Of a DNA stretch of 49,285 nucleotides, positions 6,499 to 30,514 are shown one piece after another. The notes beneath the pieces were generated by a model. That model was given only the letters and a program-made list of their open reading frames with translations. It was not told the DNA's origin and searched no databases. Both the position numbers and the translations under genes were made by a program. The stretch's first letter is position 1. Each line of letters begins with the position of its first letter. Source of the stretch: Planotetraspora mira (GTDB taxonomy: Bacteria > Actinomycetota > Actinomycetes > Streptosporangiales > Streptosporangiaceae); contig NZ_BOOO01000026.1 in assembly GCF_016863275.1 (NCBI RefSeq), positions 1-49,285 of the forward strand. The letters are read 5' to 3'.

Positions 6499-7088
6499 CG
6501 GGCGTCCACTTTCAGGATTCGGTAGGCGGCGCGGGAGGCGAGCCGGGAGGTCGGCCGGCCCTGTTCGCCGAGCCAGCGCTGCAGGGAGTCGGAGCCGAGG
6601 TGCTTCTGGACGACCAGGTAGGCCGAGCCGCCGGGCGCGAGGCGGTCCAGCCAGCGCGTGAGCATCTCGTGGAGGGCGGTCTTGCCGATGCGGATCGCGG
6701 GATTGGACCAGATGGCCTGGAACCGCACGTCGTCCGGCACCTCGTCAGGATGGAGCGACCTTACTTTGTCAAGGCCGGCGCTCTTGGCGTTCCGCTCGCA
6801 GAGCTCGACGGAGCGGCGGTTGACGTCGACGGCCCAGACCGTCGCGCCGGGCGCCCTGGACGCCATGGTCAGCGCGATGGGGCCGTACCCGCAGCCCAGG
6901 TCGAGCAGGTCGCCCTCCCCGGGCGGCGGTGGCACGGTCTCCAGCAGCACGCGCGTGCCGGAGTCGACCCGGTCGGGGGAGAACACGCCCCGGTCGGTCT
7001 CCAGCCGCAGATGCAGATCCGGGAGGACCAGGTTGACCATGCCGGGACGGCTGGCCGCCTGGGGGCTTTCCTCGAAGTAATGTGCCAC
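6495..7088 (-). CDS. Class I SAM-dependent methyltransferase, RsmC-like
   Basis: A 197-residue MTS-domain methyltransferase related to the C-terminal half of RsmC (16S rRNA m2G1207). S-adenosylmethionine motif I is LLDLGCGYGPIAL, the acidic motif II is VWAVDVNRRSVELC, and the substrate motif is IWSNPAIRIGK (NPP-type, here NPA). I start at GTG 7088, giving MAHYFEESPQ, which is the usual beginning of this actinobacterial family; the longer open frame up to 7142 runs into the terminator hairpin of the neighbouring operon. It ends with a 4-bp overlap into the SpoU gene, so it is the first gene of the minus-strand run ending at 3652. Confidence 0.85.
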   Translation of the reverse strand: MAHYFEESPQAASRPGMVNLVLPDLHLRLETDRGVFSPDRVDSGTRVLLETVPPPPGEGDLLDLGCGYGPIALTMASRAPGATVWAVDVNRRSVELCERNAKSAGLDKVRSLHPDEVPDDVRFQAIWSNPAIRIGKTALHEMLTRWLDRLAPGGSAYLVVQKHLGSDSLQRWLGEQGRPTSRLASRAAYRILKVDAR

Positions 7089-7129
7089 GTGCACAAACGT
7101 ACCAACGCCTGACAGCGGTGATCGCCGGT

Positions 7130-7172
7130 CACCGCTGTCCACAGGTCTGTGGACAGCCTGTGGACAGCGGTG
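7130..7172. terminator. Strong hairpin with three copies of CTGT(CC/GG)ACAG
   Basis: A perfect 16-bp stem (7130-7145 with 7157-7172) has an 11-nt loop, TCTGTGGACAG. It lies 20 bp after the stop of the VWA gene on the minus strand, so it should terminate the MoxR operon. The loop carries a further copy of the stem element CTGTGGACAG, so a second, competing pairing with the left arm is possible. Confidence 0.75.
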
Positions 7173-7192
7173 TGGGCGACGGGTGTGGGCGA

Positions 7193-9067: not shown

Positions 9068-10117
9068 TCACCGGGGACCCTGGTTGTTCCACACGACGAG
9101 AGGCGGCGGCACCGCCATCAGGATCTGGCGCACCACGCTCTCGGCGTCGACGTCGTCGGCCAGCGCGTCGAAGGTGAGCATCAGCCGGTGCGACATCACG
9201 TCGACGGCGACGTCCCGGACGTCGTCGGGCAGCAGGTAGTCGCGGCCCCGCAGGAGGGCGAGCGCACGCCCGGCCGCGATCAGGCCCAGGGTCGCCCGGG
9301 GGCTGACGCCGATCTCGATGACCTCCTCCAGGTCGCGCAGGCCGTAATCGGAGGGCGTGCGGGTGGCCATGACCAGCCGGACGACGTAGTCGGCGACGAG
9401 CTGGTGCACCGACACCTCCTCGGCCATCTCCTGCAGCCGGAGCAGCCGCTCGGGATCGAGCACCGGGCCGGCCACCGGCGGGCGGACGCTCATCCGCTGC
9501 AGGATCTCCAGCTCCTCGTGGGCGCTCGGATGCGAGACCCGGACCTTGAACAGGAACCGGTCGCGCTGCACCTCGGGCAGCGGGTAGACGCCTTCGGACT
9601 CGATGGGGTTCTGCGTCGCCAGCACGATGAACGGCTTCGGCAGGCGGTGGGTCCGCCCCGCCAGGGTGACCTGCCGCTCGGCCATGACCTCGAGCAGGGC
9701 CGACTGGACCTTCGCCGGCGCGCGGTTGATCTCGTCGGCCAGCAGGAAGTTGACGAACACCGGCCCGAGCTCGATGTCGAACCGCTCGGTGCTCGGGTGG
9801 TACACGCGGGTGCCGACGATGTCGCTCGGCACGAGGTCGGGAGTGAACTGGATCCGGGCGAACGTGCCGCCCACGACCGTGGCCAGCGTGGAGGCGGCGA
9901 GGGTCTTGGCCACGCCGGGCACACCCTCGAGGAGGCAGTGCCCTCGTGCCAGCAGGGCCACCAGCAGCCGCTCCACCATGTGGTCCTGGCCGACGATCAC
10001 ACGTCGTACCTCGTCGAGGGCGTCACGGAGCAGCCCGACGTCCGCCGCCCCGGCGTCCGCCTGGGTCGCGATCGCCTTGCCCGGCTCCGGGTCACTGAGT
10101 TCATCGGCAACGCTCAT
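9068..10117 (-). CDS. MoxR family AAA+ ATPase
   Basis: A 349-residue AAA+ ATPase of the MoxR group and first gene of the MoxR-DUF58-VWA operon. Visible motifs are Walker A GVPGVAKT (about residue 65), Walker B LLADEINRAP, sensor 1 LATQNPIESEG, an arginine-finger region (VQRDRFLFK) and a C-terminal lid domain with SPRATLGLI. The protein likely works as a ring-shaped remodelling ATPase acting with the VWA partners. ATG 10117 begins MSVADELSDPEP. The 140 bp upstream are shared with the divergent plus-strand membrane protein and include a decayed copy of the 5' region of the gene at 10901. Confidence 0.93.
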   Translation of the reverse strand: MSVADELSDPEPGKAIATQADAGAADVGLLRDALDEVRRVIVGQDHMVERLLVALLARGHCLLEGVPGVAKTLAASTLATVVGGTFARIQFTPDLVPSDIVGTRVYHPSTERFDIELGPVFVNFLLADEINRAPAKVQSALLEVMAERQVTLAGRTHRLPKPFIVLATQNPIESEGVYPLPEVQRDRFLFKVRVSHPSAHEELEILQRMSVRPPVAGPVLDPERLLRLQEMAEEVSVHQLVADYVVRLVMATRTPSDYGLRDLEEVIEIGVSPRATLGLIAAGRALALLRGRDYLLPDDVRDVAVDVMSHRLMLTFDALADDVDAESVVRQILMAVPPPLVVWNNQGPR

Positions 10118-11814: not shown

Positions 11815-14088
<2,274 letters not shown>

Positions 14089-17277: not shown

Positions 17278-17691
17278 GTGGCTGATGTTGAGGGGCCGCG
17301 GCACGAATGGCGGGTGCCCTGGCAGGTCACTGTTCTGAAGGCCGCCGGCGTAGCCGTCTGCGTGGGGCTGGCGCTCATCGGTGACCGCCGGCAGCTTCTG
17401 CTTGCCGGAATCGCCGCCGTCGGGTTCGCCGTGCTCGTGTTCCGTGATCTCTTCGCGCCCGTACGGCTGGCCGTGGGGGACGACGGGCTGATCGTCACCG
17501 GGCTCGCCGGCAAGGAGCGGATCTCCTGGAACGACGTCGACAGGATCCGGGTGGACAGCCGCCGGCGCTACGGCCTGACCACCGAGCTGCTTGAGATCGA
17601 CGCGGGGGAGCAGATCCATCTGTTCAGCCGCTTCGATCTGGGTGAGTCGGTGTTCGACGTGGCCGAGACCTTGATGCGCCTGCGACCCTGA
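17278..17691 (+). CDS. PH-like domain membrane protein (CFP-6/bPH_6 type)
   Basis: A 137-residue protein with two N-terminal hydrophobic segments (VTVLKAAGVAVCVGLALIG and LLLAGIAAVGFAVLVFRDLF) followed by a small PH-like domain: VRLAVGDDGLIVTGLAGKER, then ISWNDVDRIRV. This matches the bacterial PH domain family that includes mycobacterial low-molecular-weight antigen CFP-6. The function is unknown. The GTG at 17278 starts MADVEGPRHEW; GAGGGG lies rather far upstream (about 18 nt). Confidence 0.8.
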   Translation: MADVEGPRHEWRVPWQVTVLKAAGVAVCVGLALIGDRRQLLLAGIAAVGFAVLVFRDLFAPVRLAVGDDGLIVTGLAGKERISWNDVDRIRVDSRRRYGLTTELLEIDAGEQIHLFSRFDLGESVFDVAETLMRLRP

Positions 17692-17766
17692 CCGTTTCCG
17701 GGGAAGCTGCCGGCCGGGCAAGGCGATCGCAAGCCGGGGGCAAGCCCGACGCCCTACGGTGCGAAC

Positions 17767-18180
17767 GTGCCACCGGACATCCTGTTCCCCCTCGTTCTCG
17801 GCGTCGTCGGCGTCGTCACCGCTCTGGTCGGCGGCGGGCTGGGCATCGGCGCCCGCCGGTTTCGCAGGCGCGCCGAGCGCGTGGAAGGGGAGGTCGTCCG
17901 GCTGCGCCCGAGCCGGTCCCGCAACGGCCGCATCGTCTACCACCCGACAGTGCGCTTCACGACGGTCTACGGCCAGCGGGTGGAGGCCGAGTCCCCGCTG
18001 GGAGGCACGCCGCCTCCGGCCATGCCGGGGGACAAGGTCCCGGTTCTGTACGACCCGGCCAGGCCCACCCGGGTCCGCATCGACAACGCGACGGGCAACG
18101 GATTCCTCGCCGGAATGATCTTCCTCGGCACAGCCCTGGCAATCCTCTCCGCCGCCCTCCTCACCCTCCTCCGCGCGTGA
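17767..18180 (+). CDS. DUF3592 domain membrane protein
   Basis: A 137-residue protein with an N-terminal span (ILFPLVLGVVGVVTALVGGGLG), a middle extracytoplasmic domain typical of DUF3592 (VEGEVVRLRP, HPTVRFTTVYGQRVEAES, PGDKVPVLYDPARPTRVRID) and a C-terminal span (GMIFLGTALAILSAALLTLL). The function is unknown. GTG 17767 is used as start. Its stop codon TGA (18178-18180) lies inside the first 53-bp repeat unit, GTGATCATG, so the repeat array begins within the gene's last codons. Confidence 0.85.
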   Translation: MPPDILFPLVLGVVGVVTALVGGGLGIGARRFRRRAERVEGEVVRLRPSRSRNGRIVYHPTVRFTTVYGQRVEAESPLGGTPPPAMPGDKVPVLYDPARPTRVRIDNATGNGFLAGMIFLGTALAILSAALLTLLRA

Positions 18181-18759
18181 TCATGCACAGGTTCGTGATC
18201 AAGCGCCCCGACCTGCCCTTTCCCTCGCCGTGATCATGCACAGGTTCGGAAAAGTGGCCGCCGACCTGCCCCTTCACCGTTCGTGATCATGCACAGATTC
18301 GGGATCATGGGCCTTGGCCTGGTGTCGTCTCCACCGTGATCATGCGCGGTTTCGGGAACGCGCCGCCTGGCCTGCGCTTCCCATACCCGTGATCATGTAC
18401 GGCTGGGCGATCGGCCTGCCTCCCTTGGCCTGGATCAGGGCCATCCATGAGTACGCCGGAACGGCCGTAGCTCTGCGGCATGCAGGTTCGCCGCCGCGAC
18501 GAATCGGGGGCCCTTGTGATGGGGCGCAGTAGCGATTGCATGATCACGAGCATCGTTTCGCCTGCCCAGGGCCCACATCGGGGATTCCGTGCATGGTCAC
18601 GGATGACATCGCCGCAGGTCGAGGATGCTGATCCAGAACCTGCACATGATCACGAAACGTGAATGAGCAGGTCAGTGGCCACTTCTCCGAACCCGTGCAT
18701 GATCACGGTGAAGGACAGGGCAGTTCAAGGCGCTTGATCACGAACCTGTGCATGATCAC
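18177..18759. repeat. Mirrored array of 53-bp units, array 1 (giant palindrome)
   Basis: Five forward units begin at 18177, 18230, 18283, 18336 and 18389. Five reverse-complement units end at 18547, 18600, 18653, 18706 and 18759. Every step is exactly 53 bp, and a 53-bp centre (18442-18494) without a motif makes 583 bp, or 11 x 53. The unit starts GTGATCATGCACAGGTTCG, with GACCTGC at unit positions 34-40. Units at equal distance from the axis resemble each other beyond the motif: outermost pair 47/53 identical, second pair 45/53, inner pairs poorer. CAGGT (12-16) and ACCTG (35-39) could pair inside a unit. The array overlaps the upstream stop codon and ends 147 bp before the next start. No protein gene fits here. 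Confidence 0.92.
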
Positions 18760-18906
18760 GGCGGGGGGTGGGGGTGTCCTAGTGATTAATAAATCGGACA
18801 TTCAGGATTTTGGTGGCATTCAGCTTGGACGGGAGTGGGCTGGCTAGCGTTCGACGGGTTTCACCTCCGGGATCACCTCGGCGCCGGCAACAGATGGGGA
18901 ACGTCA
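18760..18906 (+). promoter_or_regulatory. Leader region of the CehA/McbA-type gene
   Basis: A G-rich run directly follows the repeat array, then an AT-rich patch (AGTGATTAATAAATCGG, 18781-18797), the likely promoter zone. The ribosome site GGGGA is at 18896-18900, just before ATG 18907. Confidence 0.45.
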
Positions 18907-21366
18907 ATGGAGCTGAACAGAAGGCGGTTCATGGTCGTCGGAGGAACGGCGGTCGCGGCCGCCGGACTTTCCGTGGAGCAGGCGGCCGCACAGGCCGCGA
19001 CCGCCCAGTCGACGGCCTCCGCACAGTCGAAGAAGGCGGCGCCGCGAGGGGAGTGGCTGGCGGGGGAGACCCACGCGCACGACGACCACTCGGCCGACGG
19101 CAGTCTCCCCCGCCAGACCTCCAAGCAGGCTCTGCCGGGGAACCTCCCCGTCAGCGACCAGATCGGCGAGGCGGAGCGGGTCGGGCTGGACTTCCTGCCG
19201 CTGACCGACCACCGCACCTACGACCAGCACTGGGACCCCCAGTGGCACTCGTCGAAGCTGCTCCTGATCCCGGGGGAGGAGGCGAACGGCTCCCCGCACG
19301 CCACCGTCCTCGGAGCGGTCGACACCATCGTGGACGGGGCGAACCCGCCCGGCTCCGCTGCGTTCCGGCACGTCCAGCAGTCGATCTGGGACGCGCACGC
19401 ACAGGACGCGTCGTGGGGGACGGCCCACCCCGACGACGGCGAGTACACCCGCGAAGCGGGTCCCAACGACAACGCCAGCGCTCAGGGAGTGAACACGGTC
19501 GAGGTGTGGAACGTCGCCTCCGACCCGGACGCTGAGATCGACTACGCCGAGAACCGATGGAACAAGGGGTTCCGCTTCGGCGCGGTCGGGGCGAGCGACT
19601 GCCACTTCCGCGAGGTGTGGGGGAAGGCGAGCCCCGGCCAGCCGACCACCTGGGTGTTCGCGGCCGAGCGCTCGGTGCGCGGGATCCTCGACGCGATCCG
19701 CGCCGGGCGCACGGCGGTCTCGGCCACCCCTCAGGGGGCGTTCGTCACGATCGAGGCCGACGTCGACGGTGACGGCGTGTTCGAGGCCATCGGGGGAGAC
19801 GAGGTGATCGTCCGTGACCGCCGTCTGCCGAAGAAGGCCCGCCTCCGCGTGCGCATCCGCGGCGGCGCCGGCGCCAAGGTCCTCGTCTACGCGTCCCCTG
19901 GCCGTACGGCCGGCCCGCTGGCGACCTTCACCCCCGGCTCGGCCGACCAGACGTATCTCGTCCCCTTCACCCTCGACGGCACGCACAACTGGTTCCGGGC
20001 CGAGGTCCGCGCGCCGGGCGACCCGTCGGGGGTGGACGCCGACCCGACGCTCCCCGACCAGTTGCGGGCGGCCACCTCGCCGGTGTTCGTCTCCCTGAAG
20101 GCGCCGGCCGTACCGGCTCCGGAGATCGCCCTTCCCCTCGCGGAGACCCGCGACGACCGGGCGTCCCTGGTGCTCGGCGAGACCGGTGAGTTCGCGGGCT
20201 TCGCCGACGTCGCCGGGCACGGCGGGGTCGCCCATGTCGTCGCCCAGGTCCATCGGGACCACCGGACCTCCGTCGTCTACCGCCGGGTGGAGTCGCACGG
20301 GCACTCCGCCCACACGCTGGAACTGTCGGCGGGCTCACCCACCGCCTGCTCTCCGCGGGTGGCGGCGTCGGGCGACGACGTCTGGGTCGTGTGGCAGGAC
20401 TCGCGGGGCCAGGAACGGCCGCACCGGTCGCAGATCTTCCTGCGCCACAGCCGGAACGGGGGGCGTTCCTTCGAGCCGGCCGTCCGCCTCACCGACACCC
20501 AGGGCCGGGCGATCCACCCGGCGGTCTCGGTCCTGGACGGCAGGCACGCCGTCGTCGCCTGGGCCGACAACGACGGCGGCGCGTTCGACGTCTACGCGCA
20601 GGTGATCGGCGTCGACGAGGCCCCCGTCAACCTGTCGGCGCCGGGCAAGACCGTCACCGCGGGCACGCCCGCCACGGACGCGCGGTCGCCGCGGTACCCG
20701 GCCTCGCTGTTCCCCGCGATCGCCGTCGGTGAAGACAAGAGCGTCGTGGTCACCTGGCAGGACAACCGGTTCGACCCCGACCCGCTGTGGACGGGGCACA
20801 CCCCGCCCGCCGGCCAGCCCGCCGGTGGCGGCACCGACCCGGACAACTGGCAGATCGTGGCGAGCGTTCGCGACGCCAAGGGACGCGACTGGACGACGCC
20901 CGTGCAGGTGAGCGCCGCCACGGACACGGCGGACCGGCACCCGGCCATCGCCAGGGACCGCGACGGCGCGTTCGTGATCATGTGGGAGACCAAGAAGCTG
21001 CAGAGCTCGGGGGCGAACCTGTCCCTGCGCGCCTGCCGGTCGGCCGATGGGGGCAGGACCTGGTCGGCCTCCGAGCCGGTCGGGCTGAACCCGGATGCGA
21101 TCAGCCAGCGTCCCAGCCTGAGCCAGGGGTCGGACGGCTCGGTCCACGCGGTCTGGTACGACACCCGTTCCGCCGACTGGCGGTGGAAGCTCTTCACGTC
21201 CCGGCTCGACCGGACCAGGGGATGGACGGCGCCGGTGCAGCTCAGCACCCTCGGCAACGGCACCTTCCCGTCCGCAGGCGACGGCTTCGTGGTCTTCACC
21301 AGCGATCGGCGGGCCACCCGCACCCAGCGGGACGGCACCCAGCAGATCTTCCTGCTGCGCGTCTAG
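18907..21366 (+). CDS. Tat-exported CehA/McbA-type metallohydrolase with sialidase-like propeller
   Basis: An 819-residue exported protein. The N terminus is a twin-arginine signal (NRRRFMVVGG, hydrophobic core to about residue 29). A PHP-type metallohydrolase domain follows, with GETHAHDDHSADG (His56, His58, His61), LTDHRTYDQHW, GEEANGSPHATVLG, HPDDGE and GASDCHFREVWG, the layout of the CehA/McbA family. The C-terminal 420 residues carry several BNR/Asp-box-like repeats (FLRHSRNGGRSF, SADGGRTWSAS) and form a probable beta-propeller. Tat export suits an enzyme that folds with metal before secretion. ATG 18907 has GGGGA 6 nt upstream; a frame extension to 18835 has no such site. The substrate is unknown; a phosphoester or carbamate-like ester is possible. 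Confidence 0.85.
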   Translation: MELNRRRFMVVGGTAVAAAGLSVEQAAAQAATAQSTASAQSKKAAPRGEWLAGETHAHDDHSADGSLPRQTSKQALPGNLPVSDQIGEAERVGLDFLPLTDHRTYDQHWDPQWHSSKLLLIPGEEANGSPHATVLGAVDTIVDGANPPGSAAFRHVQQSIWDAHAQDASWGTAHPDDGEYTREAGPNDNASAQGVNTVEVWNVASDPDAEIDYAENRWNKGFRFGAVGASDCHFREVWGKASPGQPTTWVFAAERSVRGILDAIRAGRTAVSATPQGAFVTIEADVDGDGVFEAIGGDEVIVRDRRLPKKARLRVRIRGGAGAKVLVYASPGRTAGPLATFTPGSADQTYLVPFTLDGTHNWFRAEVRAPGDPSGVDADPTLPDQLRAATSPVFVSLKAPAVPAPEIALPLAETRDDRASLVLGETGEFAGFADVAGHGGVAHVVAQVHRDHRTSVVYRRVESHGHSAHTLELSAGSPTACSPRVAASGDDVWVVWQDSRGQERPHRSQIFLRHSRNGGRSFEPAVRLTDTQGRAIHPAVSVLDGRHAVVAWADNDGGAFDVYAQVIGVDEAPVNLSAPGKTVTAGTPATDARSPRYPASLFPAIAVGEDKSVVVTWQDNRFDPDPLWTGHTPPAGQPAGGGTDPDNWQIVASVRDAKGRDWTTPVQVSAATDTADRHPAIARDRDGAFVIMWETKKLQSSGANLSLRACRSADGGRTWSASEPVGLNPDAISQRPSLSQGSDGSVHAVWYDTRSADWRWKLFTSRLDRTRGWTAPVQLSTLGNGTFPSAGDGFVVFTSDRRATRTQRDGTQQIFLLRV

Positions 21367-21472
21367 GCTGGCGACCGTCGCCCGCACCGGGCCCGCCCTC
21401 CGATTTCACCATCCGGAGACGGGCGCGGTGCGGCGGCGGTCCAAGGTCGGATTTCGGGGCAGGGAGTAGGTC

Positions 21473-22936
21473 ATGGGACGGCAGCTCAGCGCCCTCGACG
21501 CGCAGTTCCTCAACTTCGAGACGGCCACGAACCTCGCGCACATCGCGGGGCTCACCATCCTCGACCCGTCGACCGCGCCCGGAGGGGTGATCACCCGGGG
21601 CGATCTGGTCGGCCTGCTCCGCGAGCGGCTCCACCTCGCGCCGCCGCTGCGGCGCCGTCTGGTGGAGGTGCCGCTGGGTCTCGATCACCCCTACTGGGCG
21701 GAGGACGAGGAGGTCGACTTCGACTACCACGTCCGCGAGCTCGCGCTGGCGCCGCCGGGCAGCGATCACCAGCTCGCCGCCCAGGCCGCCCGGCTGCACA
21801 GCAGGCGGCTCGACCGGCGGCGCCCGCTCTGGGAGCTCTACCTGATCCACGGGCTCGCGGGCGGACGGGTGGCGGTCTACACCAAGGTGCATCATTCGGC
21901 CGTCGACGGCGTGACCGGCGCCGAGGTGCTGGCGGCGCTCATGGACTTCACCCCGGAGCCGCGGGAGGTCCCGCCGTTGGAGGACACGCCCGACGTGCCG
22001 GTCTGGGAGTCGGCGGAGCGCGCCCCCGAACCCCTCGAGATGATCATCAGGGGCGTCGCCCGGGTTCTGGACAACCCGCTGGCCCTGATGCGGTTCTTCG
22101 GCGAGGCCGTTTCGAGGCTGGACGAGGTGCCGATCGTCTCCCAGATCCCGGGCGCCGGGATGCTGGCCCGCCTGATCCGCGGCGGCACCGACCTGCCGGG
22201 ACTGCCGCGGATGTCGGTGCCGCGCACGCCGTTCTCCGGACGGGTGTCGGAACACCGCAGGTTCGCGTTCGGCGCGCTCCCGCTGGCGGAGGTCAAGCAC
22301 GTCAAGAACGCCTTCGGCGTCACCGTCAACGACGTCGTGCTGGCGCTGTGCGCGACGGCCCTGCGGCGCTGGCTGGACAAACGAGACGAACTGCCCCGCC
22401 TGCCGTTGGTCGCAGGCATCCCCATCTCGACCCGGGGGGAACTGCCCGACGACTCCCTCGCCAACGAGGTCATGCTGGCGATGACGACGATCCCGACCGA
22501 CGTCGCCGACCCGGAGGAGCGCCTGAAGTCGGTCAACCAGGCCATGAAGCTCGTGAAGGAGCGGTTCGCGGCGGCTCCGGCGACGTGGCTGCTGGAGTTC
22601 AGCCAGGCCATGCCGGCCGCGCTGAGCGCCCTCGCCAACCGCTCGGCCTTCCGGCTCGCATCCCGTACGGCTCCCGCGGTGAACCTGCTCATCTCCAACG
22701 TCCCGGGGCCCCAGTCGCCCCTCTACATCTGCGGCGGGCGGGTGCTGGCCCAGTACCCGATGTCGGTGATCACCGATGTGAGCGGCGGGATCAACATCAC
22801 GGTGTTCTCCTACGACGGCCGGATCGACTTCGGCATCGTCGTCGACAGGGAGATGGTCCCCGACGTCTGGGACCTCATCGACTACCTGAGGGACGGCCTC
22901 GCGGAGCTCACCGAACTGGCCGGACGGCAGCGGTAG
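21473..22936 (+). CDS. Wax ester synthase/diacylglycerol acyltransferase (WS/DGAT)
   Basis: A 487-residue acyltransferase that esterifies diacylglycerol or fatty alcohols with acyl-CoA for storage lipid. The catalytic motif HHSAVDG is at 140-146 (active His141). The start LSALDAQFLNFETATN is typical, and the second conserved block SNVPGPQSPLYICGGRV is intact. C-terminal motifs (NITVFSYDGRIDFGIVVD) are present. ATG 21473 has AGGGAG 6-7 nt upstream. Triacylglycerol storage by such enzymes is common in actinobacteria, which often carry several copies. It converges with the Ser/Thr kinase gene. Confidence 0.95.
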   Translation: MGRQLSALDAQFLNFETATNLAHIAGLTILDPSTAPGGVITRGDLVGLLRERLHLAPPLRRRLVEVPLGLDHPYWAEDEEVDFDYHVRELALAPPGSDHQLAAQAARLHSRRLDRRRPLWELYLIHGLAGGRVAVYTKVHHSAVDGVTGAEVLAALMDFTPEPREVPPLEDTPDVPVWESAERAPEPLEMIIRGVARVLDNPLALMRFFGEAVSRLDEVPIVSQIPGAGMLARLIRGGTDLPGLPRMSVPRTPFSGRVSEHRRFAFGALPLAEVKHVKNAFGVTVNDVVLALCATALRRWLDKRDELPRLPLVAGIPISTRGELPDDSLANEVMLAMTTIPTDVADPEERLKSVNQAMKLVKERFAAAPATWLLEFSQAMPAALSALANRSAFRLASRTAPAVNLLISNVPGPQSPLYICGGRVLAQYPMSVITDVSGGINITVFSYDGRIDFGIVVDREMVPDVWDLIDYLRDGLAELTELAGRQR

Positions 22937-23032
22937 CCGTTCGTCCTCGTCCGGCCCGGTCAGCGCGGACGGCGAGGATGCGCTTCGCCTCGTCGGCTCG
23001 GGACGGCCGAGGCCGCGCGTCTTCCAGCCCGG

Positions 23033-24688
23033 TCAGTTCGGGACGGTGAAGGCGCTGCCCGTCGTGTCCTTGCCGGTCACGTGACCGATGCAGCGGTAGA
23101 CCCGGGAACCCGCCGCGAACCGGGCGGCGCTCGGCGGCAGCACGTCGACCTCCCACCTGTCGGGTGTCAGTTTCGCCGCGGCGCCGTGCCGCGACCTGAG
23201 CAGGATGTCCATGGTGCACAGGCCGGCCACGGCGGGGTGTTGGGCCACCGTCTCCTGGTCGCTCGTGGTCAGGTCGAGGGGCAGGGGCGCGATGGCGAAG
23301 GTCTCCCAGGAGTGCGGGCCGTCGCAGGACGCGGGCCGCGCGGTCGTGTCCCCCGCGACCGACGTCAGTCCGTGCCAGCACTCCGGCTTGACGACGCACG
23401 CGGCTCCCATCACACCCGCGGCGGTGGAGGCCGGACAGCCGGTGGAGGTGACGGGGACCTCGTAGTTGGGCGGCGGCGGGCCTCCGGGCTGCCCCGGCGG
23501 CGGCCCTGGTGGCTGCCCCGCGCGGGGTGGCGGCGGTCCGAGACGGTCGATGATCAGGACGCCGATCCCGGCGGCGAGCAGAAGCGCGAACACCGCGGCC
23601 ACGACCGCGAAGATCGTCGACTGCCGCGAGCCTCCTGACGGCAGACCGGATGGGACGGTGTGGGGTCTGCCCGCCTCGGAGAGCAGCCCCGGCCCCGTCG
23701 ACTGCGGGTCCGCCGACGGCCGCCCGGCGCCAGGACCGGTCATGGCGTAGGGCGGCGCGGCCGGGTTCGCCGTCGACGACGCCCCGCGGACGCCGTAAGG
23801 CCCGGAAGACACGGGAGATCCGGAAGACATGGGAGACCCGGGGGACATGGACGAGCCGTCGACGTCCAGGGCGGCCAGCGCGTCGCGGAACTCGGCGGGC
23901 GTCTGGATGCGCTGCGCGGGATCAGTGGCCATGGCGTGCCTGAGCACGGCGGTCAACGCCGGCGGAACGCCGGGGATCTCGGGGATGGGCCGCCGATGCA
24001 ACACCATGATCACCGCGAGGTTGACCACACCGCCTTCGGGGAAGCGGGGCGGCCTGCCCTGCAACAGCGCGTAGAGGGTGGCGGCCAGCGCGTACACGTC
24101 CCCGGCGGCGGTGGGCTCGGTCAGGTCGAAGGCCTCCGGAGGGGCGTACGCGGGGGTGAGCGACTCCCTGGTCACCGACATCTCGCTCCGCGCGGGATCG
24201 CCCCCCGGCCGTGTGGCCAGCCCGAAGTCGGTCAGGGCCACCATCCCGTAAGAGTTGATCAGGATGTTGGCCGGCTTGACGTCCCGGTGCAGCACTCCGC
24301 TCGCGTGGGCGGCGGCGAGCGCGTCGGCGATCTTGATTCCGATGTCGCGGACCTCGTGGACGCCCAGCGGGCCGTTGCGCTTCAGCTGGTCCGCCAGCGA
24401 TCCGCCGGGGCACAGTTCCAGCACCATGTACGGCCGGCCGTCGGGGAGCACGCCCGCGTCGTAGATGTCGGCCACGTGGGGGTGCCCCGACAGGGCGCCC
24501 GCCGCCGTCACCTCGCGCATGAACCGCCGCTGGTCGCGCTCGGAGACCAGCACCCGATTGTCGATCTTCAGGGCGACCTCGCGACCCACCGCGAGCTGCC
24601 TGGCCCGGTAGACGACGCCGAACCCGCCCTGGCCGAGGAGGCCGAGCACCTCGTATCCCGGCACCAGTGGCGCGCCCGCCTCGTCCAC
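23033..24688 (-). CDS. Transmembrane Ser/Thr protein kinase (PknB-like)
   Basis: A 551-residue receptor-type kinase. The kinase domain (about residues 10-275) is complete: Gly loop GQGGFGVVY, Lys41 in VALK, catalytic HRDVKPAN (Asp136), DFG at 154-156, and YAPPEAF in place of the usual APE. A Ser/Pro/Gly-rich juxtamembrane linker leads to one span (STIFAVVAAVFALLLAAGIG) and a Pro-rich external stalk. The external domain has at least five Cys (TGCPAS, GAACVVKPECWHG, ASCDG, LCTMD, YRCIGHV), probably disulphide-bonded. I start at GTG 24688, with AGGAGG 8 nt upstream, instead of GTG 24733. The ligand is unknown; no PASTA repeats are present. Confidence 0.93.
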   Translation of the reverse strand: MDEAGAPLVPGYEVLGLLGQGGFGVVYRARQLAVGREVALKIDNRVLVSERDQRRFMREVTAAGALSGHPHVADIYDAGVLPDGRPYMVLELCPGGSLADQLKRNGPLGVHEVRDIGIKIADALAAAHASGVLHRDVKPANILINSYGMVALTDFGLATRPGGDPARSEMSVTRESLTPAYAPPEAFDLTEPTAAGDVYALAATLYALLQGRPPRFPEGGVVNLAVIMVLHRRPIPEIPGVPPALTAVLRHAMATDPAQRIQTPAEFRDALAALDVDGSSMSPGSPMSSGSPVSSGPYGVRGASSTANPAAPPYAMTGPGAGRPSADPQSTGPGLLSEAGRPHTVPSGLPSGGSRQSTIFAVVAAVFALLLAAGIGVLIIDRLGPPPPRAGQPPGPPPGQPGGPPPPNYEVPVTSTGCPASTAAGVMGAACVVKPECWHGLTSVAGDTTARPASCDGPHSWETFAIAPLPLDLTTSDQETVAQHPAVAGLCTMDILLRSRHGAAAKLTPDRWEVDVLPPSAARFAAGSRVYRCIGHVTGKDTTGSAFTVPN

Positions 24689-24777
24689 CTTCGCCACCTC
24701 CTCGCCTGGGTGGAACGTCCGCGTCGCGCACACTACCGGAGTCGGCGCGCCGTCGATCGTTTACGCGAGGACAGGGG

Positions 24778-26088
24778 TCAGCCGGTGGGTTCGTCCGGTC
24801 GTTCGGGAGTTGTTCCGGCGAGCGGGACGGCCTGGCCGTGCACCAGGTCGAGCTGCACCGTCTGGCGGGGCAGCAGCGCGTCGAGCAGCCAGTTGCCGGC
24901 GATGCGCGCCCGGCCGCCCGGGACGGCGAGCAGGTGGTATCCCCGGGTGACGGCCTTCGCCGGGAGGCCGGACAGCGGCACGCCCAGCGGGTTGGCCGCC
25001 GCCTTGACCCCGCCCAGGTCGACGACGAACCCGAGGTCGCCGTGCTTGTACGGCTCCCGCCTGCCCATGCCCAGGGAGGCGGCGACGTTGTGCGCGACCC
25101 GCTTGCCCTGACGGGAGGCGTGCTGGGCGGTCATCGCGGTGTACTGGCCGGGGTTGGTCAGGTCCGGCACCGCCGCGGCGTCCCCGCAGGCGAACAGCTC
25201 CGGATGGCCGGGGACGTTCAGGTACTCGTCCGTCAGCAGACGGCCCTTCTCCGTGGGCAGGCCCAGTGACTCGACGAAGGGATCCGGTCGCACGCCCACG
25301 CACCAGATCAGCGACCGGGTCGGCACGAACTCCCCGTCGGAGAGCTTGACCCCCTCGGCGGTCGCCTCCGACACGCTCGTGCCGGTGCGGATCTCCATCC
25401 CGCGCTTGACCAGGGTCCGGTGCGCGGTCCGGGACAGGTGCTCGTCGAGTTCGGGCAGGATGCGCGGGGCGAGGTCGGCGAGGATCCAGCGGAGCGGCTG
25501 GTCGCTCAGACCAGGCCGGTGCCGGCGCGCGTCCCGGGTCAGCAGTTGGCCCTGGGCCGCGACCTCGGTGCCGGTGTATCCGGCGCCGACGACGACGAAC
25601 GTGCAGCGGGCCCTGCGCTCCTCCGGATCGTCGGAGGCGTCGGCGAGCTCGATCTGACGGATGAGGTGATCGCGCAGGTAGAGAGCCTCGCCGATGCTGC
25701 GGAAACCGTGGGCGTGGTCGGCGACCCCCGGGATGGGGAGCAGCTTGTTGACGCTGCCGACCGCGAGAACCAGCCGGTCGTACTCGAGCTCCCGGGAGGT
25801 TCCCTCCGGGTCGGTGCAGGTCAAGCGCCGGGCCTGCACGTCGACGGAGTCCACAGTGGCGAGCAGGTGCCGTACGCCCGGGCAGTTGCCGGACAACGGG
25901 ATCGCGACCTTGCGCGGGTCGAGGATCCCGGCGGCGACCTCCGGTAACAGCGGGAGGTAGAGGAAGTAGTCGGTCGGGTTGATCAGGACGATCTCCGCCG
26001 TCCCCCGCGTGATCCGGGCAAGGGTCCTGGCGGCGGTGAAGCCGGCGAAACCGCCTCCGACGACGACCACTCTCTTCCGTTCAGCCAT
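24778..26088 (-). CDS. Type II NADH dehydrogenase-like FAD oxidoreductase
   Basis: A 436-residue flavoprotein of the NDH-2 family, passing electrons from NAD(P)H to quinone at the membrane face. Both dinucleotide-binding folds are visible: VVVVGGGFAGF (FAD, start) and FVVVGAGYTGTE (NADH, near residue 170). LVLAVGS and FACGDAAAVPDL are the other FAD-contacting motifs, and AMTAQHASRQGKRVAHN is the usual quinone-side segment. ATG 26088 (MAERKRV) is preferred because AGGAG lies 8 nt upstream; ATG 26094 is too close to it. It is divergent from nothing and follows its own promoter region. It ends 45 bp before the kinase start codon reported here. Confidence 0.9.
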   Translation of the reverse strand: MAERKRVVVVGGGFAGFTAARTLARITRGTAEIVLINPTDYFLYLPLLPEVAAGILDPRKVAIPLSGNCPGVRHLLATVDSVDVQARRLTCTDPEGTSRELEYDRLVLAVGSVNKLLPIPGVADHAHGFRSIGEALYLRDHLIRQIELADASDDPEERRARCTFVVVGAGYTGTEVAAQGQLLTRDARRHRPGLSDQPLRWILADLAPRILPELDEHLSRTAHRTLVKRGMEIRTGTSVSEATAEGVKLSDGEFVPTRSLIWCVGVRPDPFVESLGLPTEKGRLLTDEYLNVPGHPELFACGDAAAVPDLTNPGQYTAMTAQHASRQGKRVAHNVAASLGMGRREPYKHGDLGFVVDLGGVKAAANPLGVPLSGLPAKAVTRGYHLLAVPGGRARIAGNWLLDALLPRQTVQLDLVHGQAVPLAGTTPERPDEPTG

Positions 26089-26319
26089 GCTCATGCTCTC
26101 CTGGTCCCGGAATCGGTTGCCCTAGATGCGTGCCCTTTTTACGCCACATTGAGCATGTGGGGACACGGTATGAACGACGATTCCGCCCCGCAGGATGTGA
26201 CACCCGCTCGCTGAACCGGGACAGGCGGTCCTGAGATGCCTACCGGCCCCTGAAACAGGGGTCATGGCGGGATTGTGCCTCGATCACCCGGTGTTTCCAT
26301 GATCAGATCGATGGCTGCG

Positions 26320-26353
26320 GCGGCCCGGTGACCCGTCCAGGTCACCGGGCCGC
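26320..26353 (-). terminator. Terminator of the DUF3311-symporter operon
   Basis: GCGGCCCGGTGACC (26320-26333) and GGTCACCGGGCCGC (26340-26353) form a perfect 14-bp stem with loop CGTCCA, 31 bp after the symporter stop. The rest of 26089-26319 carries no convincing gene and should hold the promoter of the NDH-2-like gene. Confidence 0.85.
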
Positions 26354-26384
26354 GCCGGATGTCAGGTGGCCGTCCCGTGCGGCG

Positions 26385-27971
26385 TCATGTGGAGCTGGAG
26401 ACCTCCAGGTCGTGGACACGGGGGTCGCCCTGGTCGGCCGTGTAGTCGTCCGTACGGGTGGCGTCCGGACCGTCGGCGACCTTGGCGGACTTGGCGATGA
26501 CCGTGCCGAGCAGCGCGACGATCAGGTTGACGGCGAGCGCGAGGAAGCCGGCGTAGATCGTCATCTTGGTGTCCAGGCCCAGCTTGGACAGGGCGAACGC
26601 CGAGCTGCCGAAGTGGGCGTGGTTGGTCGCGGGGTTGGCGATGTTGTAGAGCATCAGCACGCCCGCCCCCATGCCGGCGATCCATCCGGCGATCAGGCCG
26701 GCCCGGTGGAACCAGCGGGTGAACAGCCCGAGGGCGACGGACGGAAGCGTCTGGAGGATGATGACGCCGCCGATCAGCTGCAGGTCGATCGAGAACTGCG
26801 GATCGATGAGCAGGATGAACAGCACGGCGCCGACCTTCACGACCAGCGAGGCGATCTTGCTGGCCGACGCCTGCTGCGCGTCCGTGGCGTCCCGCTTGAT
26901 GTACTCCCGGTAGATGTTCCTGGTGAACAGGTTGGCGGCGGCGATCGACATGATCGCGGCCGGTACGAGCGCACCGATGCCGACCGCGGCGAACGCCACC
27001 CCGGCGAACCAGTCGGGGAACATCTTGTCGAACAGCTGCGGCACGACCGTGTTCACGTCGGTGCCGATGGGCGTCACCCCCGCGGCGATGGCCATGTAGC
27101 CGAGCAGCGCGATCAGGCCGAGCAGCACGCTGTAGGCGGGCAGCGCGGACATGTTGCGCTTGATGACGTCGCGGTTCTTGGAGGCCAGGACGCCCGTGAC
27201 GCTGTGGGGGTAGAGGAACAGCGCCAACGCCGAACCCAGCGCGAGCGTGACGTACTGGAGCTGGTTGTTGGCGTTGAGCAGGATGCCGTCGGTGGCCGCG
27301 GGGGTTTTGTCGAACTTGGCCTGGGCAGCGTCGAAGATCGATCCCCAGCCGCCCAGCTGCGTGGGGATGTAGATGACCGCCACGAGGATCACCACGTAGA
27401 TGAGCGCGTCCTTGACGAAGGCGATCAGCGCGGGGGCGCGCAGCCCGGACTGGTAGGTGTAGGCGGCCAGGATCGCGAAGGCGATGATGAGCGGCAGGTC
27501 ACCGGTCACCCCCATCGTCTTGAGGACCGCCTCGATGCCGACGAGCTGGAGCGCGATGTACGGCATGGTCGCGACGATGCCGGTGATGGCGACGAGCAGG
27601 GCCAGGGTCGGCGATCCGAACCTCGCCCGCACGAAGTCCGCCGGGGTGACGAGCCCGTGCACGTGCGACACCGACCAGAGCCGGATCAGCACGATCATGA
27701 CCAGGGGATAGACGATCACCGTGTACGGCACGGCGAAGAAGCCCGTCGCGCCGGCGCCGAACAGCAGGGCGGGCACTGCCACGAACGTGTAGGCCGTGTA
27801 GAGGTCGCCTCCCACGAGGAACCACGTGATCCACGAGCCGAAGTTGCGGCCGCCGAGCCCCCATTCGTGCAGGCTGGCGATGTCGTCGGGCCGCCGCCAG
27901 CGGGAGGCCACGAAGCCCATGCCGCTGACGATCAGGAAGAGGACGGTGAAGATGACGATCTCGGTGGTCAT
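26385..27971 (-). CDS. Sodium:solute symporter, SSS family (MctC/ActP-like)
   Basis: A 528-residue polytopic transporter (about 13 spans) of the sodium:solute symporter family, in the branch that carries monocarboxylates such as acetate, propionate and pyruvate. Family features seen are WGLGGRNFGSWITWFLVGGD near residue 36, YTAYTFVAVPALLFGAGATG, and FLYPHSVTGVLASKNRDVIK in the middle. The C terminus is hydrophilic (KVADGPDATRTDDYTADQGD). The start overlaps the stop of the DUF3311 gene by 4 bp, the usual pairing for these symporters. A strong terminator follows. Confidence 0.92.
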   Translation of the reverse strand: MTTEIVIFTVLFLIVSGMGFVASRWRRPDDIASLHEWGLGGRNFGSWITWFLVGGDLYTAYTFVAVPALLFGAGATGFFAVPYTVIVYPLVMIVLIRLWSVSHVHGLVTPADFVRARFGSPTLALLVAITGIVATMPYIALQLVGIEAVLKTMGVTGDLPLIIAFAILAAYTYQSGLRAPALIAFVKDALIYVVILVAVIYIPTQLGGWGSIFDAAQAKFDKTPAATDGILLNANNQLQYVTLALGSALALFLYPHSVTGVLASKNRDVIKRNMSALPAYSVLLGLIALLGYMAIAAGVTPIGTDVNTVVPQLFDKMFPDWFAGVAFAAVGIGALVPAAIMSIAAANLFTRNIYREYIKRDATDAQQASASKIASLVVKVGAVLFILLIDPQFSIDLQLIGGVIILQTLPSVALGLFTRWFHRAGLIAGWIAGMGAGVLMLYNIANPATNHAHFGSSAFALSKLGLDTKMTIYAGFLALAVNLIVALLGTVIAKSAKVADGPDATRTDDYTADQGDPRVHDLEVSSST

Positions 27972-28171
27972 CGGGCCCTCCTCGTCATGTGATAGACGAC
28001 CAGGGTCGCGGCGACGCTGACGAGGACGAAGCTGAGTTGTAACCAGTAGAACAGCGGGATGCCGAACAACCGCGGCTCAACCGCATTGAACAGGGCTGGT
28101 ATCAGGGGAATGGCGATCGGCAGCAGGAGCAACCAGTTCCATGGACTGCGATCAGTGCGGGGTGTGGTCAT
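27968..28171 (-). CDS. DUF3311 small membrane protein
   Basis: A 67-residue protein with two membrane spans (WNWLLLLPIAIPLIPALFNA and FYWLQLSFVLVSVAATLVVY) separated by a short loop. This is the DUF3311 family, regularly encoded just before SSS-type symporters and probably an accessory subunit. ATG 28171 has AAGGAG 7 nt upstream. The 3' end overlaps the symporter start by 4 bp (ATGA), so synthesis is coupled. Confidence 0.88.
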   Translation of the reverse strand: MTTPRTDRSPWNWLLLLPIAIPLIPALFNAVEPRLFGIPLFYWLQLSFVLVSVAATLVVYHMTRRAR

Positions 28172-28299
28172 CGCATGCTCCTTCGGACACGGACTGCTCC
28201 GCAGCGTAAAGTCCGCAGTGAAAGTGAGGGATCACTGATCGCCAAACGGTCGTGTTGCCGCGACGAGCGACCCTCCTCCCATTTCCAACCCCCCCCGCC
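28172..28299 (-). promoter_or_regulatory. Upstream region of the DUF3311-symporter operon
   Basis: These 128 bp lie between the operon start and repeat array 2 and must hold its promoter unless it reads through the array. A C-rich run (28290-28296) abuts the first repeat unit and resembles, in reverse complement, the G-rich flank right of array 1. Confidence 0.4.
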
Positions 28300-28857
28300 G
28301 TGATCATGCACAGGTTCGTGAACCCCCGCCATGACCTGCCCGTCCTCCCGCCGTGATCATGCAGAGATTCGGTATCGCACGGATTGACCTGCGTCGATCT
28401 CGGGCGTGATCATGCACAGGTTCGGGAATTGCGGTCGTGACCTGGGCTTTCTCCCGGCGTGATCATGCACAAGTTCGGCGGCAAGGCTCGTGAGCTGCGC
28501 CCATGCCGACCGTGATCATGCACTCGCGCCGGCCGTCCGCGCCGGCCGTCCGCGCCGGCCGTCCGCGCCGGCCGTCCGCGAATGCTGCCGCATGCCCCGA
28601 TCGCTCATGTCTGCCAGAGCTGTGCCGGCTCACCACGTGTGTCGTGTACGGCGAAGCCGCACGCCGGAGCTGATCGCGGACGCCCTGTGCATGATCACCA
28701 TCTGAGAATTCGCAGGTCAGACCGTACGACCACGAATCTGCGCATGATCACGGCGCGCGTTCACGCAGATCAGGGTCCACGACGCCGAACTTGTGCATGA
28801 TCACGCCGGAAGAAAGCCCAGGTCACGGTCGCGATTCCCGAACCTGTGCATGATCAC
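28300..28857. repeat. Mirrored array of 53-bp units, array 2
   Basis: Forward units begin at 28300, 28353, 28406, 28459 and 28512. Reverse-complement units end at 28698, 28751, 28804 and 28857. All steps are exactly 53 bp and the unit is the same as in array 1 (GTGATCATGCACAGGTTCG, GACCTG at 34-39). The palindrome axis is not in the middle of the array: the third forward unit matches the last reverse unit at 49 of 53 bases, and the fourth forward matches the next reverse through ACAAGTTCGGCG. The axis is thus near 28631, with two extra forward units outside on the left. The array ends 7 bp before the stop codon of the CocE-like gene (minus strand). Confidence 0.92.
28525..28576. repeat. Four perfect 13-bp tandem repeats inside array 2
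   Basis: CGCGCCGGCCGTC is repeated four times without change, replacing most of the fifth forward 53-bp unit. The four copies total 52 bp, one less than the 53-bp unit. Slippage is the likely origin. Confidence 0.9.
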
Positions 28858-28864
28858 GCGCAAA

Positions 28865-30514
28865 TCAGGAGAGGTGGGGGAGGATCACGGCGCTGGGGTG
28901 GGCGGGGGTGTGCAGGATCTCCTGGTCGGAGGGGTACATGGTGGCGCCGAAGGGCAGCGGGTCGCCGGTCCCCGGATTGCGGGCGATCCGCGGGTAGGCC
29001 CCGCTCGCCACATGGACGCGGATCCGGTGGCCGCGGCGGAACCGGTGACCGATCGGCCACAGGTCGACCTCCACCCGGCGTACGCCGTCCCCGTCCGAGG
29101 GGATCGAAGGCGTCAGCCGCCTCACACCCTCGCACACGTTCATCGACGACCCGTCGGGGTGCACGTCGCAGACCCGCACCACCATGTCGGTGTGCTCCCG
29201 GCTCGACCGCACGTACAGTTCGGCCGTCACCGGCCCGATCACGTCGGTGTCCTCGGCCAGCACGTGCGACGTGTAGACGAGCACGTCCTTCCGGGACTCC
29301 AGCCTCCGGTTGTCGCGCGGCTCGGAGTTGCCGATGAGCACGGGGCCGCCGATCACCGGAGTGGGGTTGGCCGGGTCGTACCGGTACGCGTCGGGAGGGG
29401 ATTCCTGCGGGTTGTCCCGCGACAGCGCGAAACCGGGCTGGAGGTGCCACCGGGCCGGCCGCGTGCTCGCCACCGGCCAGTCCGGGAAGTCCCGCCATTC
29501 GTTCGCGCCGGTCACGTAGAGCCGGACGGGGGACGCCCGCAGCCCGGAGGGGTCGCCCATGAGGTGGGCGCGGAACCAGGCGAGCGCGTCGATGTTCGAC
29601 GCCCTTCCGTGCCGGATGTCGGCGTGGTACCACGGCCCGATCGTGAGGTACGGCTGCCGCCCCGCCGCCCGCATCGCCGCGTAGTCCTTGAGCTGCCACG
29701 GCAGGAAGACGTCGTACCAGCCGCCGGTCATCGTGACCTCGGCCGTCACCTCGCCCACGGTGCCCGAGAAGTCTCTCTTCTTCCAGTACGGCGAGGCCGG
29801 GTCGGAGTGATTGGCCAGCAGGTCCTGGAAGAACGGCATCGGCCGGCCCGCCGACGCGAGGTCGAGTTCCGACAGCGGGCGTCCCGACAGGACGGCGCGC
29901 CGCGTCCGCCACGGGGCCGTCAGCGCCGCCATGCCGCCCAGGCGGCCCTCCATCTGCGTGGTCAGCGTGGTCCAGATGAGCGTGGACTCCAGTGCGAACG
30001 CTCCGCCGACGTACGCCGCGTCCCGGAAGTTCGACGCGGTGACCTGGGTCGCCATGGCCGCGAGATCGGGCGTCTCCGAGGCGATCGCCCACTGGTTGTA
30101 GCCGAGGTAGGAGGGCCCGTGCATGGCGAAGCTGCCGCCGTACCACGGCTGGGCGCGCATCCAGCCGACGGTCGCGAGCCCGTCCTCGCGCTCGTCGCCC
30201 AGGGGGTCGAGCAGGCCGCCGGAGCCGAAGCCGCCGCGGCAGCTCTGAATGATCACCTGGAACCCCTGCCGCGCGAACGTCCAGCCGTACAGCCAGCCGA
30301 AGACCCCGGCCCGGCCGTACGGTGTGCGGATCAGGATGGTCGGGGGCTGGGGGGCGCCGACGGGGATGTAGTGGTCGGTCAGCAACGCCACCCCGTCCGG
30401 CATGGGGACGGGGATGTCGCGCCGCACCTGCACACGACGAGCGGGTACGCCGGGTGGCCGGGGGAGAACCGGCAGCCGTGGGACGGGTAGCCGGGGAACA
30501 GGCAGGTAAGCCAC
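28865..30514 (-). CDS. CocE/NonD family hydrolase (X-Pro dipeptidyl-peptidase S15-like)
   Basis: A 549-residue alpha/beta hydrolase of the S15/CocE group (cocaine esterase, X-Pro dipeptidyl peptidase). The nucleophile is Ser135 in HGPSYLGYNQWA. The oxyanion-side motif is RTPYGRAG, QSCRGGFGSGG is the conserved strand near residue 90, and GGWYDVFLPWQLKDY and IGPWYHADIRHG hold the likely acid and His. The C-terminal jelly-roll domain (VTAELYVRSSREHTDMVVRV) is complete. The N terminus is odd: three short Pro/Leu/Val repeats (PVPRLPV) before the core. GTG 30514 follows AAGGAGG closely. No signal peptide is evident. Its stop lies next to repeat array 2. Confidence 0.9.
   Translation of the reverse strand: MAYLPVPRLPVPRLPVLPRPPGVPARRVQVRRDIPVPMPDGVALLTDHYIPVGAPQPPTILIRTPYGRAGVFGWLYGWTFARQGFQVIIQSCRGGFGSGGLLDPLGDEREDGLATVGWMRAQPWYGGSFAMHGPSYLGYNQWAIASETPDLAAMATQVTASNFRDAAYVGGAFALESTLIWTTLTTQMEGRLGGMAALTAPWRTRRAVLSGRPLSELDLASAGRPMPFFQDLLANHSDPASPYWKKRDFSGTVGEVTAEVTMTGGWYDVFLPWQLKDYAAMRAAGRQPYLTIGPWYHADIRHGRASNIDALAWFRAHLMGDPSGLRASPVRLYVTGANEWRDFPDWPVASTRPARWHLQPGFALSRDNPQESPPDAYRYDPANPTPVIGGPVLIGNSEPRDNRRLESRKDVLVYTSHVLAEDTDVIGPVTAELYVRSSREHTDMVVRVCDVHPDGSSMNVCEGVRRLTPSIPSDGDGVRRVEVDLWPIGHRFRRGHRIRVHVASGAYPRIARNPGTGDPLPFGATMYPSDQEILHTPAHPSAVILPHLS

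Follow-up and report, generated by a model that had tools for sequence, protein, structure and literature searches.

Analysis of Planotetraspora genomes points to an undescribed family of 53-bp phased extragenic repeats that is probably recognised by a protein

Several repeat systems combine some of the features considered here. Mycobacterial interspersed repetitive units are tandem repeats of some tens of base pairs that lie between genes, at TGA stop codons. Eukaryotic foldback transposable elements have long inverted arms of tandem subrepeats arranged around a centre. Among bacterial repeats, the REP and BIME sequences of the GTAG and CGTC superfamilies are described by Di Nocera et al. 2013 (PMC3733652) as extragenic sequences of high copy number that lie downstream of genes, contain units in opposite orientation and carry a fixed tag. 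CGTC REPs apparently also occur without a dedicated transposase; the terms Actinobacteria, Streptomyces, CGTG and TGATC are all absent from the main text of that paper.

The repeat described in the present study was found in a 49,285-nt stretch of the Planotetraspora mira genome (contig NZ_BOOO01000026.1; hereafter the window). The original prediction had described one locus, array 1, as a palindrome of ten units on a 53-bp grid, five forward and then five inverted. The array is real and far beyond chance, its 19-base motif being present 14 times in the window at ≤3 mismatches compared with a mean of 0.00 in 100 dinucleotide shuffles. Both the grid and the order of orientations were recovered, although the number of ten is reached only when the two decayed innermost units are counted. 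The total length is 583 bp, or 11 × 53. Whole-unit identity of the mirrored pairs, from outermost to innermost, was 47, 45, 35, 29 and 18 of 53, which reproduces the predicted values for the first two pairs. Since mirrored units match over their whole length, array 1 is an inverted duplication, as had been proposed. The expectation that the outer units are best kept and the inner ones decayed was also borne out: motif mismatches (left/right) climb inwards from 0/0 through 0/1, 1/3 and 3/5 to 5/6. The two innermost units, with 5 and 6 mismatches, retain their initial 9 and 11 bases unchanged. The C at 18176 is part of a 12-bp core described below. The window contains another such array, array 2 (Table 1). 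Its outermost right unit pairs with the third left unit, with 88% spacer identity. The tandem repeat at its centre is expanded in the window but not in Planotetraspora silvatica.

Table 1. Positions of the arrays and of other repeats in the window, and of the stretches of genome G373 with the palindromic module (positions within its loci)
Feature	Position	Strand	Description
Array 1, left arm	18177..18441	+	five 53-bp units; GTGATCATGCACAGGTTCG beginning at 18177, 18230, 18283 and 18336, decayed at 18389
TGA of outermost array 1 motif	18178..18180	+	stop codon of the upstream DUF3592 gene (17767-18180)
Array 1, centre	18442..18494	.	exactly 53 bp, without motif
Array 1, right arm	18495..18759	-	five inverted units, ending at 18759, 18706, 18653, 18600 and 18547
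Array 2, whole	28300-28857		similar to array 1
Array 2, left arm	28300..28523	+	motifs at 28300, 28353, 28406 and 28459; truncated motif at 28512
Array 2, centre	28525-28580		perfect 13-bp tandem repeat, CGCGCCGGCCGTC × 4.3
Array 2, right arm	28680..28857	-	four inverted motifs at 28680, 28733, 28786 and 28839
Long tandem repeat	12933-13525		288-bp repeat, 2.1 copies, 88% matches, within a large minus-strand gene
G373 module, L224	2013-2297
G373 module, L225	1611-1896 and 2238-2499
G373 module, L226	1923-2241

Array 1 belongs, as one copy among many, to a dispersed family of extragenic repeats whose hallmark is the 12-bp core CGTGATCATGCA. The genome that contains the window (G000, 9.03 Mb) has 617 copies of the 19-mer at ≤2 mismatches and none of the reversed control. 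Same-strand neighbours less than 400 bp apart (overlapping loci kept) are spaced by 53 bp in 365 of 390 cases. The unit consensus, derived from 455 motif copies (overlapping loci kept), begins with the core and consists of CGTGATCATGCACAGGTTCG followed by a GACCTG-like box at positions 33-38 (numbered from the G of GTGATC), with variable sequence before and after the box. We describe the monomer as a C-rich leader, the core, a lineage-specific extension (approximately CAGGTTCG) and a spacer containing the GACCTG-like box; it is usually oriented away from the stop codon of the preceding gene. In alignments the innermost motif is often shortened to approximately the core, and the centre may hold two of these half-motifs opposite each other. 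A CRISPR array was considered and rejected: the spacers have a GACCTG-like box in common, and between orthologous units they diverge through point changes. No conclusion was drawn on helical phasing beyond the 53-bp pitch, because the Rayleigh figures contain multiples of 53 and few independent spacings.

For counts of arrays we used clusters of at least 2 hits (≤4 mismatches) located at least 700 bp from sequence ends, with identical copies removed. This gave 94 arrays, in which orthologous arrays of two species are counted separately and 68 of which come from loci selected for holding two exact units. By the 19-mer criterion 46 are mirrored, with outer ends pointing in, 45 are one-armed and 3 are mixed. 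The one-armed arrays retain both the motif and the pitch; in 39 of them a search of the inner side over 320 bp, at ≤2 mismatches, found no inverted core.

We also examined the distribution of the family in other actinomycetes. In a set of 60 genomes, the 19-mer was present 191-634 times in the four congeners of the window's genome (G001; G002, P. phitsanulokensis; G003, P. kaengkrachanensis; G004, P. silvatica) and 0-3 times in the 55 others. At least 80 motif loci were found in named genomes, all of them, among the matches listed, in P. silvatica, P. kaengkrachanensis or P. phitsanulokensis. The spaced pair CGTGATC-N46-CGTGATC occurred 9-593 times in 13 of 341 genomes of the family (the five Planotetraspora, G085, 5 of the 15 genomes of genus g86 and both of g55) and 0-3 times in the remaining 328. 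A search of 296 genomes of the class added G432, with 5. Period-53 arrays thus recur in the five Planotetraspora genomes and three other genera, and the anticipated recurrence of phased, mirrored arrays at intergenic sites of related genomes was confirmed. The core itself was present at least 20 times in 8 of 394 genomes of the class, from five families (G000, 684; G373, 288; G432, 287; G579, 100; G371, 35; G491, 29; G414, 22; G143, 20), and 0-8 times in the other 386; the reversed control of this count includes CTAG and is hence biased low. The core palindrome with a gap of 4-34 bp was found in 2 of 396 genomes of the phylum, G000 and G373. Distribution is patchy even within a genus, since G388, a congener of G432, lacks cores altogether; the arrays are therefore dispensable.

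The sequence following the core differs between lineages. The next base is C in 100 of 120 units of G000 and G in 24 of 29 units of G001, the spacers of which can no longer be aligned with those of its congeners; its dialect may have arisen by switching in place or by replacement of arrays. Loci of the more distant G373, G432, G579, G491 and G414 combine the core with other extensions, approximately ATCCCGCCACC, [CG][AG]TCCTGGG, CGCCAGCGCA, CGTTCGCCCC and GTTG. Their units form either inverted dimers or tandem series, at pitches of around 34, 38, 44 and 53 bp. In genus g86 a spacing series of 53, 53, 14, 53 and 53 (±1) recurs, with a palindromic centre. At the g86 loci L144-L158 the outer unit is usually near CGTGATCTTGTAGTTTGTCGCA while the inner ones are CGTGATCATGCA or CGTGATCTTGCA; consequently, position within the array seems to matter. 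In G373 the sequence between the cores contains a further conserved module, palindromic and ~80 bp long, which starts near CAGAATGCTGGGTT and ends near GCAGCATTCTG; no Rfam match was obtained on it.

Comparison with the described systems revealed likenesses and differences. Like the REP and BIME sequences of PMC3733652, the Planotetraspora repeats are high-copy, extragenic, mostly 3′ of genes and often inverted, and combine a fixed tag with family-specific sequence. They differ from that description in the tag, which is the 12-mer core rather than GTAG or CGTC, and in forming direct tandem arrays with a 53-bp pitch. A REP unit is a small (20-40 bp) palindrome, whereas single Planotetraspora units are not hairpins. 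Since neither the unit palindrome nor a GTAG/CGTC tag was found, we have not filed the repeat as a member of the REP family. Several loci in G579, G491 and G414 are inverted dimers around a short loop and in this respect resemble REPINs as presented in passages of PMC2817692. In contrast to the REPIN/RAYT system, 13 of 19 array carriers have no RAYT transposase (PF01797). Mirrored arms, a short conserved core, drifting spacers and many more copies distinguish the arrays from mycobacterial interspersed repetitive units. Unlike foldback elements, they are bacterial, small and mostly orthologous between two species, with no cargo gene in one candidate (G143). Neither Rfam nor literature searches identified a known named element. 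Among the matches listed, in literature other than subscription papers and preprints, there was no description of this repeat, and among the listed publications containing core strings none dealt with repeats, PMC5839063, on ArgR, alone being relevant. Together these findings suggest a so far undescribed family of repeats, probably recognised by a protein.

Gene contexts were assigned with a simple purpose-made gene predictor and are therefore approximate. Of the 94 arrays, 35 are flanked by convergent genes, 52 by tandem genes and 7 by divergent genes, compared with 80, 260 and 113, respectively, for a background of 453 intergenic gaps of at least 40 bp. In a contiguous sample of 26 arrays the corresponding numbers were 10, 16 and 0. 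The arrays sit directly behind stop codons: of the 142 outer ends of arms, 99 point to the 3′ end of a gene no more than 400 bp away, and 91 of these 99 fall between 60 bp inside and 50 bp past the called stop. In 28 of the 99, as in array 1, the TGA of the motif is itself the stop codon of the gene. The flank outward of the arms is C-rich on the sense strand. In the distant lineages, 17 of 22 core clusters have an outer end ≤75 bp from a gene 3′ end and 5 do not. Inspection by eye of locus L188 of G143 showed two one-armed arrays (~7060-7190 and 9700-9850) that interrupt an apparent purine-breakdown operon, the gene preceding the second array terminating within it. Cargo between arms was rejected for the only case inspected, these two G143 arrays ~2.6 kb apart, since the sequence between them resembles that operon and not a transposon.

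Comparison between species allowed the parts of the unit to be examined separately. Ten of the 11 arrays in a 340-kb stretch of G000 occupy orthologous places in G003. Between the two species 117 units were mapped in either direction, with no core required in the partner, and 49 with poorly aligned spacers were dropped. In the remaining 68, identity was 0.957 for the core, 0.767 for the extension, 0.657 for the spacer and 0.796 for the GACCTG box. The partner cores had 0, 1, 2 and 3 mismatches in 42, 18, 7 and 1 cases, respectively, and none had more than 3. A separate count of 52 ordered unit pairs gave 0.949, 0.779, ~0.67 and 0.745 for the same four parts. For units of different sites, core identity was 0.873 and spacer identity 0.33-0.36. 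Four-fold codon sites of the same two species are 0.808 identical (41,950 sites), while an ordinary intergenic control was 0.899 identical with 0.136 gap openings per mismatch. At that rate more than one indel per unit would be predicted; an indel was seen in 8 of the 68 mapped units, a number that the requirement for alignable spacers may lower by hiding indels. The unit finder also prefers intact cores, and mapping 117 units in the manner described lessens both biases but does not remove them; the near-constant 53-bp spacing is independent of alignment. The unit identities, the indel counts and the intergenic control show that core and pitch are constrained while the spacers drift, changing faster than their surroundings.

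The relation between the two arms was examined in 59 mirrored arrays. Spacer pairs with at least 80% identity numbered 15 of 1046 between arms, compared with 7 of 46,975 in a control between arrays; at a threshold of 65% the numbers were 51 and 280. At least one between-arm pair of ≥65% was present in 36 of the 59 arrays and absent from 23. In a separate count, copies of at least 80% identity made up 17 of the 1071 pairs joining the two arms and 10 of the 1122 pairs from a single arm. The arms are often shifted, so that pairing by unit index under-counts such copies (mean spacer identity 0.50 for mirrored and 0.44 for non-mirrored pairs, 37 arrays). Joint change was measured in eight array comparisons between species, restricted to pairs whose arms are ≥72% identical in one of the genomes; such a selection is biased towards joint change. 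In mirrored pairs 30 sites had changed jointly and at 9 each arm had kept its own base, versus 58 and 828 in all other pairs. Four of the 7 mirrored pairs account for the excess, and the remainder, including one in array 1, show the reverse (2:3, 1:4 and 0:1). These results show that the arms copy each other in inverted orientation. Mismatches between arms on the sense strand in tandem-gene contexts comprised 60 of the G-U type and 63 of the A-C type. Without a G-U excess, the copying looks like a DNA process rather than selection for RNA pairing. The mirrored arms look like the arm-to-arm copying in bacterial palindromes treated in a passage of PMC8794818, which presents it as a mutation route able to mimic compensatory change.

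With moderate confidence we propose that the arrays are a new REP/BIME-like repeat family whose units are putative docking sites for a DNA-binding protein. A sequence-specific protein, perhaps common to several actinomycete lineages, would bind the core on DNA, and the fixed pitch would let adjacent bound molecules touch. Tandem duplication and template switching at palindromes may generate new units, and at gene 3′ ends the likely effect would be on the end of transcription or on local chromosome architecture. The frozen core, the fixed pitch and the existence of one-armed copies favour recognition by a protein on DNA. The cooperative DNA-binding protein of the original prediction thus fits the constraint on core and pitch, although no protein that binds the core was found; ArgR, the closest by motif, was examined and is discussed below. 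The prediction that all motifs face the same side of the DNA agrees with the 53-bp pitch but does not hold universally, as distant relatives have pitches near 34, 38 and 44 bp, which are not whole helical turns. Those pitches argue against the docking reading, as do the patchiness of the family and the 3 of 7 mirrored pairs without joint change.

The chief rival explanation sees the arrays as a mobile repeat that is purely selfish and non-autonomous (MITE- or REP-like), moved in trans by a transposase recognising CGTGATCATGCA, with placement at stop codons reflecting tolerated insertion. We consider this possible but rather unlikely as the whole explanation; it and the docking model can both be true. 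Many copies, patchy occurrence across families, the lineage dialects and the scarcity of arrays between divergent genes are all in its favour, as is turnover at array 1 itself, which is present in G000 and G004 but missing from G001, G002 and G003. In G085 no array follows the gene upstream of array 1 and the right flank is non-homologous; by eye, this gene stops in G085 and G003 at the place of the motif TGA or two codons past it. Against a selfish origin, old orthologous copies retain core and pitch despite drifted spacers. Array 1 has no near-identical sister copy in G000, its best paralogue being 84% identical over 130 bp. When occupied and empty forms of array 1 were compared by eye, at this one site, the intergenic stretch was found to be replaced, with no clear target duplication of the sort that precise insertion of a DDE-transposon MITE leaves. 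Array 2, in comparison, was found in all five species, with a span estimated by eye at ~150 bp in G001 and ~170 bp in G002 versus 558 bp in the window. A RAYT partner was rejected, since PF01797, the only transposase type searched, had 0 matches in 13 of 19 carriers (G000, G002, G003, G004, G085, G209, G238, G373, G432, G579, G491, G414 and G371). It was present in G143, G216, G222, G060 and G109 and partially in G001. The four PF01797 matches of G001, the congener with a different dialect, are partial Y1-transposase pieces, one with internal stops. Among plasmids, phages and viral contigs nothing matched the initial 301 bp of array 1 or the core palindrome; the 19-mer occurred on two viral contigs, in one copy each and without a surrounding array.

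An RNA element of the 3′ UTR, in which transcripts of the array would form a long hairpin with a role in terminating transcription or protecting the mRNA, is in our estimation improbable. It would account for the location behind stop codons and for the C-rich leader on the sense strand, and arrays 1 and 2 do fold far beyond shuffles (z = −17.8 and −15.3, respectively). The long hairpin predicted for array 1 can therefore form, but it did not stand as a general feature. The hairpins arise from inverted pairs of units, and the single 53-nt units of the window fold no better than shuffles in 6 of 6 cases (z from −0.81 to 0.99). We dropped the whole-array hairpin as a selected feature because 39 of the 94 arrays have no inverted partner, the arm mismatches have no wobble bias and 23 of the 59 mirrored arrays have no well-paired spacers. 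Rfam gave nothing at gathering score on the arrays, either in window positions 17500-29500 or in 12 related loci; the matches off the arrays were three sub-threshold hits in the former and a tRNA and a TPP riboswitch in the latter.

That the arrays are massed ARG boxes, the core being bound by the arginine repressor ArgR, appears very improbable. The idea draws on a passage of PMC5839063, in which an S. coelicolor fragment shifted by ArgR is assigned the box CTCTCCGTGATCATGCACCC, which contains the core. We scored units with an ARG-box matrix built from 36 of the 44 published boxes, the CTCTCCGTGATCATGCACCC box excluded. Units of G001 (11.8 bits), G432 (12.7 bits) and the inner g86 units (15.0 bits) agree with the proposal, whereas lower scores were obtained for the outer g86 unit (6.4 bits) and for the Planotetraspora consensus, whose 8.8 bits come from a shifted register. 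A score for G373 that had been computed on a padded flank was set aside. In G000 the box preceding the argC-like gene gives 18.7 bits, and it carries A at a position at which G is nearly invariant in the arrays. ArgR (PF01316) is single-copy in 29 of 30 genomes, with arrays or without, and has 0 copies in the carrier G109. This genome, rated 99% complete, has 156 period-53 pairs yet no PF01316 match. Finally, it is very improbable that the arrays are a satellite without function whose uniformity is maintained by replication slippage and palindrome template switching. Tandem duplicates and inverted copies are both observed among the units, but homogenisation should even out the spacers too, and each unit's spacer drifts on its own, in contrast to the core.

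The docking model can be taken further. Chromosomes of some actinomycetes might carry a genome-wide phased lattice of putative sites for one DNA-binding protein, with a common core and a second part, the ‘dialect’, rewritten in parallel at hundreds of places, as if site and protein co-evolve, and with the arrays anchoring or insulating the ends of transcription units. We regard this wider picture as unlikely. The family itself would add a further tag class to the bacterial extragenic repeats, in a phylum that the main text of PMC3733652 does not mention. Its strict pitch, frozen core and fast spacers make the choice between parasite and docking site testable, and the lineage dialects are a natural experiment in how hundreds of sites change together.
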